A stretch of 26,336 nucleotides of DNA from a virus. The translations under genes were made by a program, and so were the position numbers. Positions within the stretch are counted from its first letter, which is position 1, and every line of letters starts with the position of its first letter. The notes beneath the pieces were generated by a model. The model made no database searches and was not told the origin of the DNA. It was given only the letters and a program-made list of their open reading frames with translations. Shown in pieces: positions 15,085 to 24,985 of this stretch. Location: positions 1-26,336 of the IMG/VR virus record IMGVR_UViG_3300032116_001148. One strand, 5' to 3'.

Positions 15085-15167
15085 AGGACGTAGAGCAAGG
15101 CACCGAAGGCTGCCATATACAGCAATGACAGCAGCAGGATGGTCAGCCTGTCTTCAGGATGGGTCAT
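15081..15167 (-). CDS. 28-residue single-span membrane microprotein
   Basis: Short reading frame M-T-H-P-E-D-R-L-T-I-L-L-L-S-L-L-Y-M-A-A, then F-G-A-L-L-Y-V-L. One hydrophobic span fills residues 8-28 after a charged N-terminus. Its ATG lies inside the last codons of the dCMP deaminase gene (14-base overlap), in keeping with the packed arrangement of this strand, and an AAGG lies upstream. Its TAG overlaps the stop of the convergent metallophosphoesterase gene. Support is a good membrane segment and fitting position; there is no homology evidence. Confidence 0.5.
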   Translation of the reverse strand: MTHPEDRLTILLLSLLYMAAFGALLYVL

Positions 15168-15585
15168 GTGCCTTGCTCACCCAGACGCCAGCCTCGTCCA
15201 GCATCGTCTCTGCTGCCGTGAACTCTTCCTGCGCCATTGACGTAGTCCCATCGCCATGGACGATGTGTCCGATCCCGGCTTGGATCAGCGTGCGGGCACA
15301 GGCAGCACAGGGTGCGTGAGTCACGTACACCGAACAGCCGTCCGTCTGGATGCCGGATCGTGCAGCGAAGGCGATCAAGTTCGCTTCGGCATGGCTGGCA
15401 AACAGATACTTCTGCGGGCGCTCAAAGCGTTCCGGCAGATCATCGACGCCACGCGGCGGTCCGTTGTAGGCGGTCAGCCTGACTTCGCCATCCGGTCCGA
15501 CCAGCACTGCACCAACTTTGGTACTATCCTTGGACTTCTTCGCCGCGTGTTCGGCAAAGCCCATGTAGTAGGTAATCCAGTCCAT
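15154..15585 (-). CDS. dCMP/cytidine deaminase family protein
   Basis: 143 residues with the zinc-dependent deaminase signature H65-A-E67-A-N and P92-C93-A-A-C96, where His and the two Cys hold zinc and Glu is the proton shuttle. The N-terminus (S-K-D-S-T-K-V-G-A-V-L-V-G-P-D-G) is typical of deoxycytidylate deaminases, which turn dCMP into dUMP and so feed dTTP synthesis during phage replication. The ATG shares a base with the upstream stop (TGATG); a GTG one codon earlier is an alternative start. It lies at the downstream end of the early block. Confidence 0.9.
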   Translation of the reverse strand: MDWITYYMGFAEHAAKKSKDSTKVGAVLVGPDGEVRLTAYNGPPRGVDDLPERFERPQKYLFASHAEANLIAFAARSGIQTDGCSVYVTHAPCAACARTLIQAGIGHIVHGDGTTSMAQEEFTAAETMLDEAGVWVSKAHDPS

Positions 15586-15788
15586 CACTCGTTATCCCAC
15601 CGATCTTCAAAAGGTTTCATCTTCGCGAGTGCTCGACGCGCCGCGTCGCGAGCAGACTGGTGGCAATCGGAATATGCCACGATGAACTTCAGCGCCTCGC
15701 GCAGCCGCTCGATTTCGGTGGCGGCTTCTTCCATGTCGCCTTCAGTGGGCTCCGCATCCAAACGCAGCCGTTCCACAATGTCAGTCAT
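15585..15788 (-). CDS. Mini-gene paralogue 1 (VERLR / EIERLREAL coiled-coil protein)
   Basis: 67 residues, starting M-T-D-I-V-E-R-L-R and containing A-A-T-E-I-E-R-L-R-E-A-L, a short amphipathic helix likely to form a coiled coil, then A-R-D-A-A-R-R-A-L. It is one of four related proteins in a row here; at DNA level the 27 bases at 15691-15717 recur almost unchanged at 16076-16102 and 16401-16427. The ATG sits 7 bases after a GGAGG supplied by the end of the upstream paralogue. Unlike its siblings it ends in R-W-D-N-E, not G-E-D-K. Function unknown; similar short helical proteins are frequent in phages and prophages of alphaproteobacteria. Confidence 0.75.
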   Translation of the reverse strand: MTDIVERLRLDAEPTEGDMEEAATEIERLREALKFIVAYSDCHQSARDAARRALAKMKPFEDRWDNE

Positions 15789-16528: not shown

Positions 16529-16897
16529 TCAGCCCGCTTTTTGTTTGGCACCACGCGCTTCCGGTAGAGGTTCGACTCCAAGCTCCGCGCATACACGTTC
16601 CTTGACGAGCTCGAGGCTTTGTCTGACTTCGTGTGATTCACTGGCTGTCTCCGCTCCGATGGCTGCATAGCCCGCTATGTCGATCCAGCTATCCATATGT
16701 AGCCCACGGGTCTGCTTCAGTCTGACGACCTTCTGAAGAATCTCGATGAGTGCCACGTCGTGCGGTTCAACAGGGTGATCCAAATACAGGGAGAACATCT
16801 CGGCCATTGCCGCGAGTGTCTTCGGCGCTCCGCCGTACGTGCATTCCCGTTCCACGACGATCTTTCTCGCTGACTCCAGAATCTGACTTCTGTTCAC
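16529..16897 (-). CDS. DUF6378-like phage protein
   Basis: 122 residues. The pattern M-N-R-S-Q-I-L-E-S-A-R-K-I-V at the start, T-Y-G-G at 20-23, then H-D-V-A-L-I-E-I-L-Q-K-V-V-R-L and D-S-W-I-D-I-A-G-Y-A-A at about 70-78 is that of a phage family named DUF6378, all-helical and possibly related to MazG-like nucleotide pyrophosphohydrolases; the family name is from memory. Start is GTG after AAGAAGG. The first 131 bases overlap the 3' end of the DnaA-like gene in another frame, which is unusual for this block. Confidence 0.75.
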   Translation of the reverse strand: MNRSQILESARKIVVERECTYGGAPKTLAAMAEMFSLYLDHPVEPHDVALIEILQKVVRLKQTRGLHMDSWIDIAGYAAIGAETASESHEVRQSLELVKERVCAELGVEPLPEARGAKQKAG

Positions 16898-17378
16898 TTG
16901 CCTTCTTCCTCTTCTCGACCTGCCGAATTCCGTACAGGATGGTGGTGTGATCGCGGTTCAGAATCTCTCCGATCCTCGGCAGAGACCAATCCGTGTGCTT
17001 GTAGATGCGCCAGTAAAGTTCTTGCCGAATCCGAACGAGCTCGGGCTGCCGCCGCGGAGAGCGAATCTCGGCGAGCGAATAGCCCGTCTCCTCAGTGATC
17101 TCGGCGATCATCTGGGTGACGATCTTGCTGTATTGCATCTTGCCCTTGGTGATCGTGACGTAGTCATCGAACATTTTTTCAAGCATGCGCCACTGGTCGC
17201 GACGCGCCTGTTCCTTCATTCGCTCCTGCTGCAACCGTTGTTCGACAAGTTGCTGAGCCCAAGTCAAATGGTTCTTTTCATCATCGGCCCGTCGCTTTTG
17301 CTCTGCTGCCGCGTTGAAACGGGCAAGGCGGGCTTTGCGCTCCTCGTGAAGTTTCTGCTTCAGGCTCATGGTGCTCAT
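16767..17378 (-). CDS. Protein with DnaA domain IV-like DNA-binding domain
   Basis: 203 residues. Residues 6-75 are a highly charged helix rich in Lys, Glu, Arg and Gln, likely a coiled coil. Residues 98-157 match the C-terminal duplex-binding domain of DnaA: S-L-A-E-I-R-S-P-R-R, L-V-R-I-R-Q-E-L-Y-W, S-L-P-R-I-G-E-I-L and the hallmark D143-H-T-T. There is no AAA+ ATPase domain, so it is not an initiator by itself; it may bind DnaA-box-like sites to recruit or block host DnaA or act as a regulator. The ATG overlaps the ArdC-like stop (ATGA). The last 45 residues overlap the next gene and look unconserved. Confidence 0.8.
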   Translation of the reverse strand: MSTMSLKQKLHEERKARLARFNAAAEQKRRADDEKNHLTWAQQLVEQRLQQERMKEQARRDQWRMLEKMFDDYVTITKGKMQYSKIVTQMIAEITEETGYSLAEIRSPRRQPELVRIRQELYWRIYKHTDWSLPRIGEILNRDHTTILYGIRQVEKRKKASEQKSDSGVSEKDRRGTGMHVRRSAEDTRGNGRDVLPVFGSPC

Positions 17379-18238
17379 GCTACTTCTCTTAGTTCTTCTT
17401 CCTCATTGAAGTTGAGAATGAAGTCCGCAGCCTTGGAGGCTTGGGACGCCGCTCGAACGAGGGCTCGCTTGTCTTTCTTTGCCGCCTCGAGCCACGACTT
17501 CAGATACCTGGCGTGGTCGTCACGCACGTAATTCGTAATACCGAAGTCAGCAGACAGGAAGGCAGCGCCCATCTCGGCGATCATCTCCTCGACCGCATAG
17601 GCATCCGAGCCAAACGAGGTCGAAAGATTACGATCCAACCGTTTCTTCGCTCCAGTCCAATGGACAAGTTCGTGGAACAGCACGGAGTAATAGTTCTCCA
17701 TGGTCACGAACTGCTCGGGCTTGGGCATCCGAATCGTGTCAATAGAGGGGACGTAGCATGCACGGTCGCCACCGATGTCGATAGTGGCATTGAGGCGCTT
17801 GATCGCGTTGTCGATGTCATCACGACGGGCGATTGCGCTTGCGCCTTGTGTGGGCTCCGGCTCCATCGCCTTGGCACCTTCAACTTGCTCGGCATTGAAG
17901 ACATAAGAGACACGGCTGACGATGCTCTTGGTTGGATCGCCGCTCTCACCCTCACGCTCATACTGTTTGAAGAAGATGATCGGCGTGCCCTTTGCACCCT
18001 TGCGCACTTTGCAGTCGGCGGCTTGCCACTGATTGAAGGTTGCCCAGCGGTTCGAGCTGTAGCCCGCACGATGCGCGGCGGCCCAGCACATGAAGACGTT
18101 CACGCCCGTGTAGCGCTTCTTCGTGATGGCATTGCTGGGACGGTCAAGGCCGAGCTCTCGCCACGGCGGAGCCCAGTTGCCCGCTCCATCGACCATCTCC
18201 AAGAGGCGGTCGGTGATCTCCTGATATGCGTCCTTCAT
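17375..18238 (-). CDS. ArdC-like antirestriction protein (ssDNA-binding domain plus zincin metallopeptidase)
   Basis: 287 residues. The N-terminal part (residues 1 to about 120; W-A-P-P-W-R, N-A-I-T-K-K-R-Y-T-G-V-N, then K-V-R-K-G-A-K-G-T-P-I-I-F) is the ArdC N-terminal ssDNA-binding domain. The C-terminal part has H189-E190-L-V-H193-W-T-G, a HExxH zincin site, and Y-A-V-E-E-M-I-A-E, the usual third-ligand helix. ArdC proteins of plasmids and phages protect incoming DNA from type I and II restriction. An in-frame TTG at 18250 is possible, but the ATG at 18238 directly follows GGAGAGAG and is preferred. It follows ssb, separated by a hairpin. Confidence 0.88.
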   Translation of the reverse strand: MKDAYQEITDRLLEMVDGAGNWAPPWRELGLDRPSNAITKKRYTGVNVFMCWAAAHRAGYSSNRWATFNQWQAADCKVRKGAKGTPIIFFKQYEREGESGDPTKSIVSRVSYVFNAEQVEGAKAMEPEPTQGASAIARRDDIDNAIKRLNATIDIGGDRACYVPSIDTIRMPKPEQFVTMENYYSVLFHELVHWTGAKKRLDRNLSTSFGSDAYAVEEMIAEMGAAFLSADFGITNYVRDDHARYLKSWLEAAKKDKRALVRAASQASKAADFILNFNEEEELREVA

Positions 18239-18256
18239 CTCTCTCTCCAAAGTGAA

Positions 18257-18286
18257 GTGCCGGGGCTCATCACCCCGGCACGTTTT
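18257..18286. terminator. Strong hairpin between ssb and the ArdC-like gene
   Basis: A perfect 9-bp GC-rich stem (GTGCCGGGG / CCCCGGCAC) with a 7-base loop lies between the ssb stop and the ArdC-like start. On the plus strand it is followed by GTTTT, the form of an intrinsic terminator; on the minus strand, the coding direction, it is followed by TTCACTTTGG, a weaker tail. It may partly stop early transcripts so that ArdC is made at lower level than SSB, and may also stop antisense transcripts. Confidence 0.6.
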
Positions 18287-18669
18287 CAGAACGGCATGTC
18301 GTCATCGAGGACAGCTGCTGTCGATGGCGAACCACCAGAACCGCCATCCTCTGCTCGCGTCAGCAACTGAAGCTCACCCGAGAAGCGGCCGATGCTGACC
18401 TCGACAGCCAGCTTCTCGACACCGTCCTTCGTGTAGGTCCGCTTCTCGAGCGCGCCTTCGACGTAGACCTTCGTGCCCTTGTCCGCGAAGGAGTCGAGAA
18501 CCTCGACCTTCTTCTCGTCCCAGCACACACAGTCTACCCACATCGTCGCCTTCTCTTTGTTGACGTAGCGGTTCACGGCAACCGAGAAGCGGGCGAACCG
18601 CTTCCCATTGGTCTCCTTGATCTCAGGCTTGCGCCCGAGATTGCCGATGAGCGTAACCTTCGCCACCAT
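18286..18669 (-). CDS. ssb: Single-stranded DNA-binding protein
   Basis: 127 residues with the OB-fold pattern of bacterial and phage SSB: V-T-L-I-G-N-L-G-R-K-P-E-I at 5-17, F-S-V-A-V-N-R, W-V-D-C-V-C-W-D, and K-G-T-K-V-Y-V-E-G near 65-73. A Gly/Ser-rich linker leads to the acidic tip D-D-D-M-P-F, the site by which SSBs recruit partner enzymes. It coats single strands during replication and recombination and would act with the ERF and YqaJ proteins encoded upstream. The ATG shares a base with the upstream stop (TGATG). Confidence 0.95.
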   Translation of the reverse strand: MVAKVTLIGNLGRKPEIKETNGKRFARFSVAVNRYVNKEKATMWVDCVCWDEKKVEVLDSFADKGTKVYVEGALEKRTYTKDGVEKLAVEVSIGRFSGELQLLTRAEDGGSGGSPSTAAVLDDDMPF

Positions 18670-23422: not shown

Positions 23423-23983
23423 TTAGGCGACCCGCTGGCGCGGATCGGACGAAGTGAATGCCAGGTCGTCGCCGATCCCGGCTCCGTCACCGCCGACCAG
23501 CTTGGCCAGATCGGCAGCAGCGTTGCTCTGAGCCTGAACTCGCGGAGTGTAGTTGGGCTCCGCCCAGTTCTTGTCGGTGAAGTGCTCGTATGCACGGACC
23601 GAGTCTCGGAAGGCGCTGCGCACCACTTCGACCTGAGCTTGCGCTCGCAGGATGCGCTCGCGCTGCTCGTGGAACCGATCCTCCATGTTCGGACCGGGCC
23701 GCGTGCTATTGAGCATGTTGCGACCGATGGTGACGGCGCGCTCGTGGTAGTTCTGCGAGCTCTTGAGCTGGTAGAACAGAGCGTTTGCGACGGAGCGGAG
23801 AACCGCTTCCTGAGCGTAGCGCAAATCGTTGACGATGATCGGCTGCCCCGGCTCGCGAAGCTGCTCGATGTTCGGGTCTTCCTGCTCCCGCTCCTGCGAG
23901 ATGTGAGGAAGGTTGAAGAAAGCGCCTAGCTCGTTGATGAGGGACGCGAAGGACTTGTCGGTAGCGTTCTTGATCTTAGCCAT
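23423..23983 (-). CDS. First gene of the leftward block, hypothetical protein
   Basis: 186 residues from the ATG after AGGAGAG; an upstream ATG at 24019 is in frame but has no such site. The protein is mainly helical and charged, with a Gln/Glu/Arg-rich stretch at 27-45 and a probable coiled-coil region at about 102-125 (R-F-H-E-Q-R-E-R-I-L-R-A-Q-A-Q). No family recognised. It is the promoter-proximal gene of the leftward block, with its own terminator, and so is probably made in large amounts early, a profile seen for phage takeover or structural proteins. Confidence 0.72.
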   Translation of the reverse strand: MAKIKNATDKSFASLINELGAFFNLPHISQEREQEDPNIEQLREPGQPIIVNDLRYAQEAVLRSVANALFYQLKSSQNYHERAVTIGRNMLNSTRPGPNMEDRFHEQRERILRAQAQVEVVRSAFRDSVRAYEHFTDKNWAEPNYTPRVQAQSNAAADLAKLVGGDGAGIGDDLAFTSSDPRQRVA

Positions 23984-24034
23984 TGTACTCTCCTGTTGAT
24001 CTAGATTTTCCTGATACACACCTAGGTTGTTTTG

Positions 24035-24386
24035 GATTCGATCTCACGGGGTTGGATCGCGCCGTTGTACCCAGAGACACAGCTCGGGTCGCGCTACCCT
24101 TGGAGACCTTTGTAGTCGGCGAATCGTCGTCTTTTTTATGTCCGTCGCCGTTGGGACGTTAAGTGGCACGGGCCGCTGCTGGCGCACCGACCGCCTGCGG
24201 TCGGCCGTAACGAAGTGGAGGAGCCCTCCGGGCTTGCGCCTTGAGCAGCGGGCTGGGCCATAGTCCCAACCCTTAGGCGGCGGACATAAAGAAGGCGACT
24301 CGGTTGATGAAGGAGGACTCCAAGGGCAGCGCGGCGCGGTAGTCATTAGGGGGCAATGGTGTGATCCAAGCTCGTGGGATCGAATC
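24035..24386 (+). ncRNA. Large rod-like structured RNA, unrecognised class
   Basis: The region 23984-24592 lacks a protein gene. Within it, 24035-24072 pairs with 24349-24386 at 36 of 38 positions (30 Watson-Crick, 6 G-U). 24091-24111 pairs with 24312-24332 (17 Watson-Crick, 2 G-U, 2 mismatches). 24135-24157 pairs with 24263-24290 around a 5-base bulge. 24171-24185 pairs with 24236-24259, interrupted by two bulges. At the tip, 24187-24193/24198-24204 forms a 7-bp hairpin with loop CCTG and 24222-24226/24230-24234 a second hairpin. G-U pairs occur as G and T on the plus strand, so the folded RNA should be the plus-strand transcript. I do not recognise a known family. The promoter is not identified. 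Confidence 0.7.
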
Positions 24387-24547
24387 AGGGCGACCAAACC
24401 TCACCCCTCATTGCCCTTCCATTTCCCTGTCTTGCGCGAGGATCGAAGCCCGGAGGGTGGAGACGCCGAAGGTGGCTCCATTCACGAGAGCCGTGCCCGA
24501 CGAAGGAGGGACGCGCCCTAGTCCCTTGACAGCCTTTTCGACATGGT

Positions 24548-24592: not shown

Positions 24593-24985
24593 ATGCCCAA
24601 CGTGCCTACGAGAGTGCAGACGCCGAGCGGTGAGCTTACCCCCAAGCAGGATGCGTTCGTAGATGCGTATGTAGCGAACGGAGGCAAAGGGTCCGCAGCA
24701 GCCAGAGCAGCCGGTTACGCTGAGTCTTCCGCACACGTAGAAGCGAACAGAGCGCTGAAGAACCCGCTGATATTGCAGGAGATTTACAGGAGGACAGCAC
24801 TGGCCATAGGTGCTGCTGCTCCAAGGGCACTGGCGACGATAGTGGAATTGAGCTCCACAGCTAAGAGTGACTACGTAAAGCTCGAAGCCTCTCGCGACCT
24901 GCTTGATCGCAGCGGCCTGAAGGCACCCGACAAGGTCGATCACCGACTGGACGGCGAGCTGCGAATCAGTATCGACCTGTCGTGA
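24593..24985 (+). CDS. terS: Terminase small subunit
   Basis: 130 residues. The N-terminal helix-turn-helix matches the Terminase_2 pattern: L-T-P-K-Q-D-A-F-V-D-A-Y-V at 15-27, then G-S-A-A-A-R-A-A-G-Y, A-N-R-A-L-K-N-P. The C-terminal part (K-L-E-A-S-R-D-L-L-D-R-S-G-L) is a helix used for ring assembly, and the end binds the large subunit. It recognises phage DNA for packaging. The ribosome binding site is weak (no GGAGG before the ATG), unlike most genes here. The packaging site is often in or near this gene, which adds interest to the structured region upstream. Confidence 0.88.
   Translation: MPNVPTRVQTPSGELTPKQDAFVDAYVANGGKGSAAARAAGYAESSAHVEANRALKNPLILQEIYRRTALAIGAAAPRALATIVELSSTAKSDYVKLEASRDLLDRSGLKAPDKVDHRLDGELRISIDLS

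Follow-up and report, generated by a model that had tools for sequence, protein, structure and literature searches.

A long hairpin and an adjoining 3' domain before the early operon of a marine phage probably form an element of the F plasmid Frpo type

Introduction

The closest described counterparts of the locus reported here are Frpo1 and Frpo2 (Masai and Arai 1997; Couturier et al. 2023, PMC9849209), promoters in the leading region of the F plasmid that work on single-stranded DNA. As outlined in PMC9849209 and PMC11541004, Frpo folds on the transferred strand into a mimic of a double-stranded promoter, and from it the gene for the single-stranded-DNA-binding protein (SSB) and other leading genes are expressed until the complementary strand has been made. 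PMC9849209 gives the two as 92% identical and about 5 kb apart, with Frpo2 in front of ssbF and Frpo1 in front of ygeAB.

The DNA analyzed here, referred to as the window, comprises an entire IMG/VR record (26,336 bases) and represents a fragment of a podovirus-like phage. The original prediction placed a rod-like structured RNA tied to terminase in the gap between its early genes and its terminase genes.

Results

The first early gene of the window (23423–23983, minus strand), taken from the open reading frame list and preceded by an AGGAG ribosome-binding site read directly from the letters, encodes 186 aa. The start codon is 52 nt left of the rod described below, which stands before this gene. 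The product has no Pfam family; short proteins resembling it are found at the equivalent place in several relatives. The minus-strand early operon also encodes SSB (18286–18669, minus strand; PF00436, 5e-21), an ArdC-type antirestriction protein (17375–18250, minus strand; PF08401 ArdcN, 1e-30, and PF18818, 1e-45), ERF, and a RecE-like exonuclease; SSB and ArdC are what we take to be typical leading-region genes. A DnaA C-terminal-domain protein (16767–17378) and a dCMP deaminase-like protein (15154–15588) are encoded on the same strand of the operon. On the other side of the gap, the terminase small subunit gene terS (24593–24985, plus strand; PF03592, 5e-13) is a neighbor outside the element. 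Its likely promoter is marked by a TTGACA box (24526–24531, plus strand) that lies 3' of the element. The window has no good −10 box after it; the position of the box is kept in relatives, where TATACT or TATATA often follows, and a sigma70-like TTGACA box belonging to terS follows the element in many of them. An opposite-strand open reading frame starts 60–800 nt upstream of terS in 91 of 97 related loci.

The gap holds a long imperfect hairpin with a branched tip, the rod (24035–24386, plus strand). As RNA, the plus strand folds into a single continuous rod with a branched tip at −233.9 kcal/mol (z = −17.6; 0 of 100 shuffles as low) and the minus strand at −178 (z = −9.4), and with DNA parameters the plus strand folds at −122.9 (z = −14.0). 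The structure reaches slightly outwards, to about 24025–24395. A strand-neutral arm-to-arm alignment gives 124 Watson–Crick, 19 G·U/G·T, and 2 A·C pairs (129, 16, and 1 with other gap costs). Because G·U/G·T pairs far outnumber A·C pairs in this alignment, the plus-strand bias of the rod is real, and the plus strand is supported as the folded strand. Both the rod and its plus-strand wobble bias are thus as first predicted. The prediction further took the G-U pairs to fix the sense as that of the terminase genes; since terS has its own promoter box 3' of the element, they fix the folded strand and not the sense of a transcript. No plus-strand promoter was found 5' of the rod.

The expectation that no known family has this shape held as well: Rfam, at gathering and permissive thresholds, gave no match for the window, only weak chance matches with E up to 5 or 10, so the rod is no known Rfam RNA. 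A DNA search of the rod against annotated phages gave no match. The inner-hairpin motif GAGCATGGCGAGTA was discarded as a family marker, its hits being, among the matches listed, mostly apparent chance. A near-identical phage (L083) is represented by a 17.6-kb contig whose end falls precisely on the tip of the rod, where the hairpin probably interrupted assembly.

With TerS (24593–24985) as anchor, 171 loci with enough upstream sequence were grouped into 103 sequence clusters, a sample with many fragments from metagenomes and incomplete independence among related loci. A hairpin occupies the divergent gap before terS in most of the roughly 100 lineages of related marine phages, over a range of 34–59% GC. 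The strongest 240-nt segment upstream of terS has a median z of −5.8, with 70% of values below −4; the control regions 300–900 nt downstream and 800–1400 nt upstream have medians of −1.5 (11% below −4) and −2.5 (31% below −4), respectively. Of the negative controls, four distant TerS loci (L077–L080) have no clear hairpin, and Vibrio phage VA-RY-3, a TerL relative with an equivalent divergent layout, has none of this kind.

Among 48 independent locus pairs, doubly changed rod pairs are still canonical in 209 of 323 cases (65%), whereas only 36% are canonical when the partner is moved by 2–3 bases; a strand-symmetric version gives 268 of 379. Because doubly changed pairs stay canonical far above the shifted control, it is the pairing of the rod that is under selection and not its sequence. 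The original proposal that the arms differ yet pair through selection for RNA structure is therefore right as to pairing, borne out by the compensatory changes, but probably not as to RNA, given the single-stranded-DNA elements at which domain D, described below, is found.

Arms of the rod can extend into the first early gene, and close relatives have exchanged inner hairpins. In columns 201–340 of alignment A2, two groups of loci (L031, L033, L034, and L025 versus L032 and L035) carry nonhomologous inner hairpins of the same shape, and their rods are otherwise nearly identical around the exchange. The L010 rod upstream of terS has, over its full 247 bp (93% identity), the opposite orientation to those of the close relatives L009 and L011, through either a single inversion or an assembly artifact at the inverted repeat. 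In Hodr, a cultured Pelagibacter phage, the arms form near-perfect palindromes with no clear strand preference; the 5' arm takes in the ribosome-binding site and the opening codons of the early gene, and the 3' arm extends as far as the terS promoter. In near-perfect rods like that of Hodr, small indels are at least as frequent as substitutions, which indicates bulged helices that are kept rather than decaying repeats. Over the whole phage family the strand bias is weak (219 versus 181, p = 0.06), and some lineages have none.

Between the rod and the terS promoter lies domain D (24433–24518, plus strand), common to loci with little other similarity. It is composed of stems P1 (GCGNN/NNCGC) and P2 (GGG-A-UY/R-A-G-CCC), a short hairpin, D1, whose loop is mostly GAA, GTA, GCA, or GNNA, a second hairpin, D2 (USGAG-A-C...G-G-CUCSA), and the invariant loops GAAG and ACGA. 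In 28 diverse copies the Y-R pair is canonical throughout (C-G in 10, T-A in 10, and G-C in 8), the second pair of the second hairpin is G-C in 14, C-G in 13, and T-A in 1, and P1 and P2 also covary, as assessed with a shuffling test. GNA triloops account for 45 of 74 parsed D1 loops (33 GAA, 7 GTA, 4 GCA, and 1 GGA), and GNNA loops for most of the rest. GNA loops are a class known for compact DNA hairpins. The window's own D folds poorly alone by energy. Rfam yielded no family for D, even at E = 10 for the window region, and no match among 20 TerS loci or 12 D loci; a literature text search with the D sequence returned nothing relevant.

Two covariance models of D were used: R1, from seven phage copies with unedited sequence, and R2, a larger model with F left out of training and with hand-shortened loops in two rows of its alignment (A5). 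The window's own copy is in the training set of both, and both lead to the same conclusion. Matches to R1 include further TerS loci, other phage contigs, some with many copies on both strands, and bacterial genomes, in which D is found far from any terminase. Five contigs (L429, L436, L376, L404, and L406) carry two to eight copies each, on both strands and mostly without rods. L187 and L204 carry D on the minus strand immediately 3' of the terS match. Since most relatives have it on the opposite strand and the opposite side of terS, the element has moved or been duplicated. The Firmicutes loci L491 (Anaerovibrio) and L520 (Selenomonas) have nearly identical D copies with structured sequence 5' of them, and this similarity suggests horizontal spread. 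The rod is present and D is not detectable in many relatives, including the isolate Hodr; such phages may depend on the rod by itself or work in another way.

The D models also match microvirus-like contigs and plasmid leading regions. In a gokushovirus D lies between VP1 and VP2, and in the single-stranded-DNA microviruses it is on the coding (virion) strand. A consensus search matched 1,581 plasmids, of which 1,379 are conjugative. Among D copies outside TerS loci, a strong rod lies 5' in about a quarter, versus 2% on the 3' side. The searched segment of the F leading region has exactly two copies of D, 5.4 kb apart, one of them just upstream of ssb. The seven-sequence phage model R1 finds them at E = 5e-10 and 7e-9, and R2 detects the Frpo2 and Frpo1 loci at E = 8e-21 and 2e-18. 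By map position and published description, the two copies sit at the reported places of Frpo1 and Frpo2; the Frpo region was first delimited at 328 nt. The E. coli plasmid PCN061p4 has four copies in its leading region, all on one strand and opposite most leading genes there. Matches in R388 are weak and D-like, one of the upstream regions is not rod-like, and owing to their weakness these matches should not be counted. A G4-type primase origin was rejected, as the D model has no match in G4, which carries a priming origin, or in phiX174.

In F, a rod (DNA z = −8.0) lies 5' of D, followed by the ssb start codon on the other strand, an order and spacing shared with the phage. The rod of PCN061p4 has a DNA z of −8.5, and F, PCN061p4, and the phage have in common the order of opposite-strand gene start, long rod, and D. 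The distance from the opposite-strand start to D is 330–630 nt over 15 elements. The highly stable one-strand stem-loop of about 300–450 nt that characterizes Frpo/ssi elements is thus found both in the window and at the F locus. In all three replicons D is on the template strand of the opposite-strand genes, which in F and PCN061p4 would be the transferred strand; in the window, rod and D are on the plus strand and the early operon on the minus strand, the Frpo/ssi orientation. On the D strand, the rods of D-bearing elements have 125 G·T against 48 A·C pairs (p = 4e-9), as expected if the D strand is the one that folds. A simple scan gave no leftward sigma70 consensus in or near the rod, although sigma70 may not be the preference of the host, and no minus-strand sigma70 promoter is consistent across relatives.

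Discussion

We consider it probable, at about 0.7, that the rod and D together are an element of the Frpo/ssi type, folded in single-stranded DNA and acting for the early operon on the minus strand. This reading rests on the equivalent parts, in equivalent order, that the phage sets against an operon with SSB, ArdC, ERF, and a RecE-like exonuclease; the SSB and ArdC content and the GNA-loop preference of D1 are supporting and not decisive. When single-stranded, the plus strand would fold into a duplex-like rod with D at its 3' side, and D would be the module recognized by a protein or polymerase. RNA would then be made leftwards, with the plus strand as template, into the operon for these four proteins, as mRNA and/or as primer for minus-strand DNA. 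Promoter or primer activity in the phage is proposed, and we likewise infer that infection exposes a single-stranded plus strand, that RNA polymerase initiates on it, and that the early operon benefits. Against this reading, we know of no obligatory single-stranded-DNA stage in a tailed double-stranded-DNA phage. Further points against it are the copies of D without rods on both strands of some contigs, the weak strand bias of the family, the relatives without D, the poor fold of the window's D when taken alone, the weak R388 matches, and the lack of a leftward sigma70 consensus.

The rod and D are not specific to terminase and are probably not an RNA. D in conjugative-plasmid leading regions, single-stranded-DNA phages, and bacterial genomes far from terminase, together with the placement of plasmid and phage units alike upstream of opposite-strand genes, speaks against the RNA tied to terminase that was originally envisaged. 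In place of a packaging RNA, a terminase regulator, or a decoy RNA, the order of parts and the covariance match indicate single-stranded-DNA promoters of the F Frpo type.

Were the element a single-strand initiation site for replication only (ssi/sso type), the folded plus strand would prime complementary-strand synthesis and the nearby genes would be incidental. D on the virion strand of microviruses, the contigs with several copies on both strands, and an early block with SSB, ERF, and a RecE-like exonuclease are in keeping with such a site, and Frpo of F is itself reported as both promoter and primer site. We regard it as unlikely: in phages and plasmids alike the element keeps a fixed place shortly before the start of an opposite-strand gene, which together with the four copies in the PCN061p4 leading region suggests gene expression, and the G4 priming origin and phiX174 give no match. 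A structured noncoding RNA from the plus strand, such as an antisense to early mRNA or the leader of a late transcript, would account for the better plus-strand fold, the G·U excess, and the covariation. It is rendered quite improbable by D-bearing homologs at plasmid single-stranded-DNA promoters and on the virion strand of single-stranded-DNA phages, by the GNA loops, and by the terS promoter box 3' of the rod with no plus-strand promoter on its 5' side. Similarly doubtful is a double-stranded-DNA cruciform or a packaging or replication signal, be it pac/cos-like or an N4-like extruded hairpin promoter: the rod adjoins terS and the Hodr palindromes are near-perfect without clear strand preference, but D-bearing elements favor G·T over A·C and D lies far from terminases. 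The pac/cos or genome-end variant was rejected, as complete contigs have no consistent ends at the rod. A neutral relic of inverted duplications, to which arms overlapping coding sequence, the L010 inversion, and the exchanged inner hairpins might point, is already contradicted by covariation far above control, by a hairpin kept in most lineages over 34–59% GC, and by the indel-rich near-perfect rods.

If the Frpo/ssi reading is correct, marine tailed phages might even time infection by the state of their strands, early or late genes being chosen by DNA strandedness, an extension that we offer tentatively. A plus strand made single-stranded by resection or replication would let the rod and D drive the minus-strand early and anti-defense operon, and conversion to double strand would silence that operon and free the adjacent terS promoter. 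Such a switch, if true, would be a plasmid-establishment device transplanted into phages. The data suggest an Frpo-like switch before the early genes in a large group of marine tailed phages. Conjugative plasmids are known to use single-stranded promoters; the rod-and-D unit before the early operon of abundant marine podoviruses, together with D in single-stranded-DNA phages, suggests one widespread DNA-fold family common to plasmids and viruses, whose members the D covariance model provides a means to find. It also raises the question of whether a double-stranded-DNA tailed phage expresses anti-restriction and SSB genes from single-stranded DNA.

Several known systems resemble the phage element in part. 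A phi29-type packaging RNA was rejected, with no Rfam match and a TerS (PF03592) in the phage. The cabRNA of staphylococcal phages (PMC10686824) is likewise a structured nucleic acid linked to terS, but it is an RNA inside the terS–terL coding sequence and not an upstream divergent hairpin, and there is no homology; a cabRNA-like origin of the rod was rejected on location. The N4 hairpin promoters, which have GNA loops, and the complementary-strand origins of M13 and G4 are DNA hairpins read by polymerases, as proposed here, but unlike the rod they are short, and D is absent from G4 and phiX174. The CUP elements of IncN plasmids (Delver and Belogurov 1997, cited in PMC6289460) likewise recur as upstream elements of MOBF leading regions, in which copies of D are found; they are ArdK-bound double-stranded-DNA operators and promoters, unlike D as read here. 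The ssi/Frpo-like candidates of plasmid leading regions (Samuel et al. 2024, PMC11541004) are, as described there, intergenic folded elements before anti-defense and SSB genes, as here; that survey, in its account of the search, used BLAST and promoter boxes in conjugative elements and reports no covariance model or phages. Frpo1 and Frpo2 themselves differ from the phage element in replicon, a tailed double-stranded-DNA phage without conjugal single-stranded-DNA entry, and the rods cannot be aligned in sequence, the −35 and −10 boxes of the Frpo stem not being recognized in the phage. They correspond to it in a long stem-loop upstream of an opposite-strand gene start, a 3' domain D (E = 8e-21) on the template strand, and an SSB gene under its control in F and, as proposed, in the phage.
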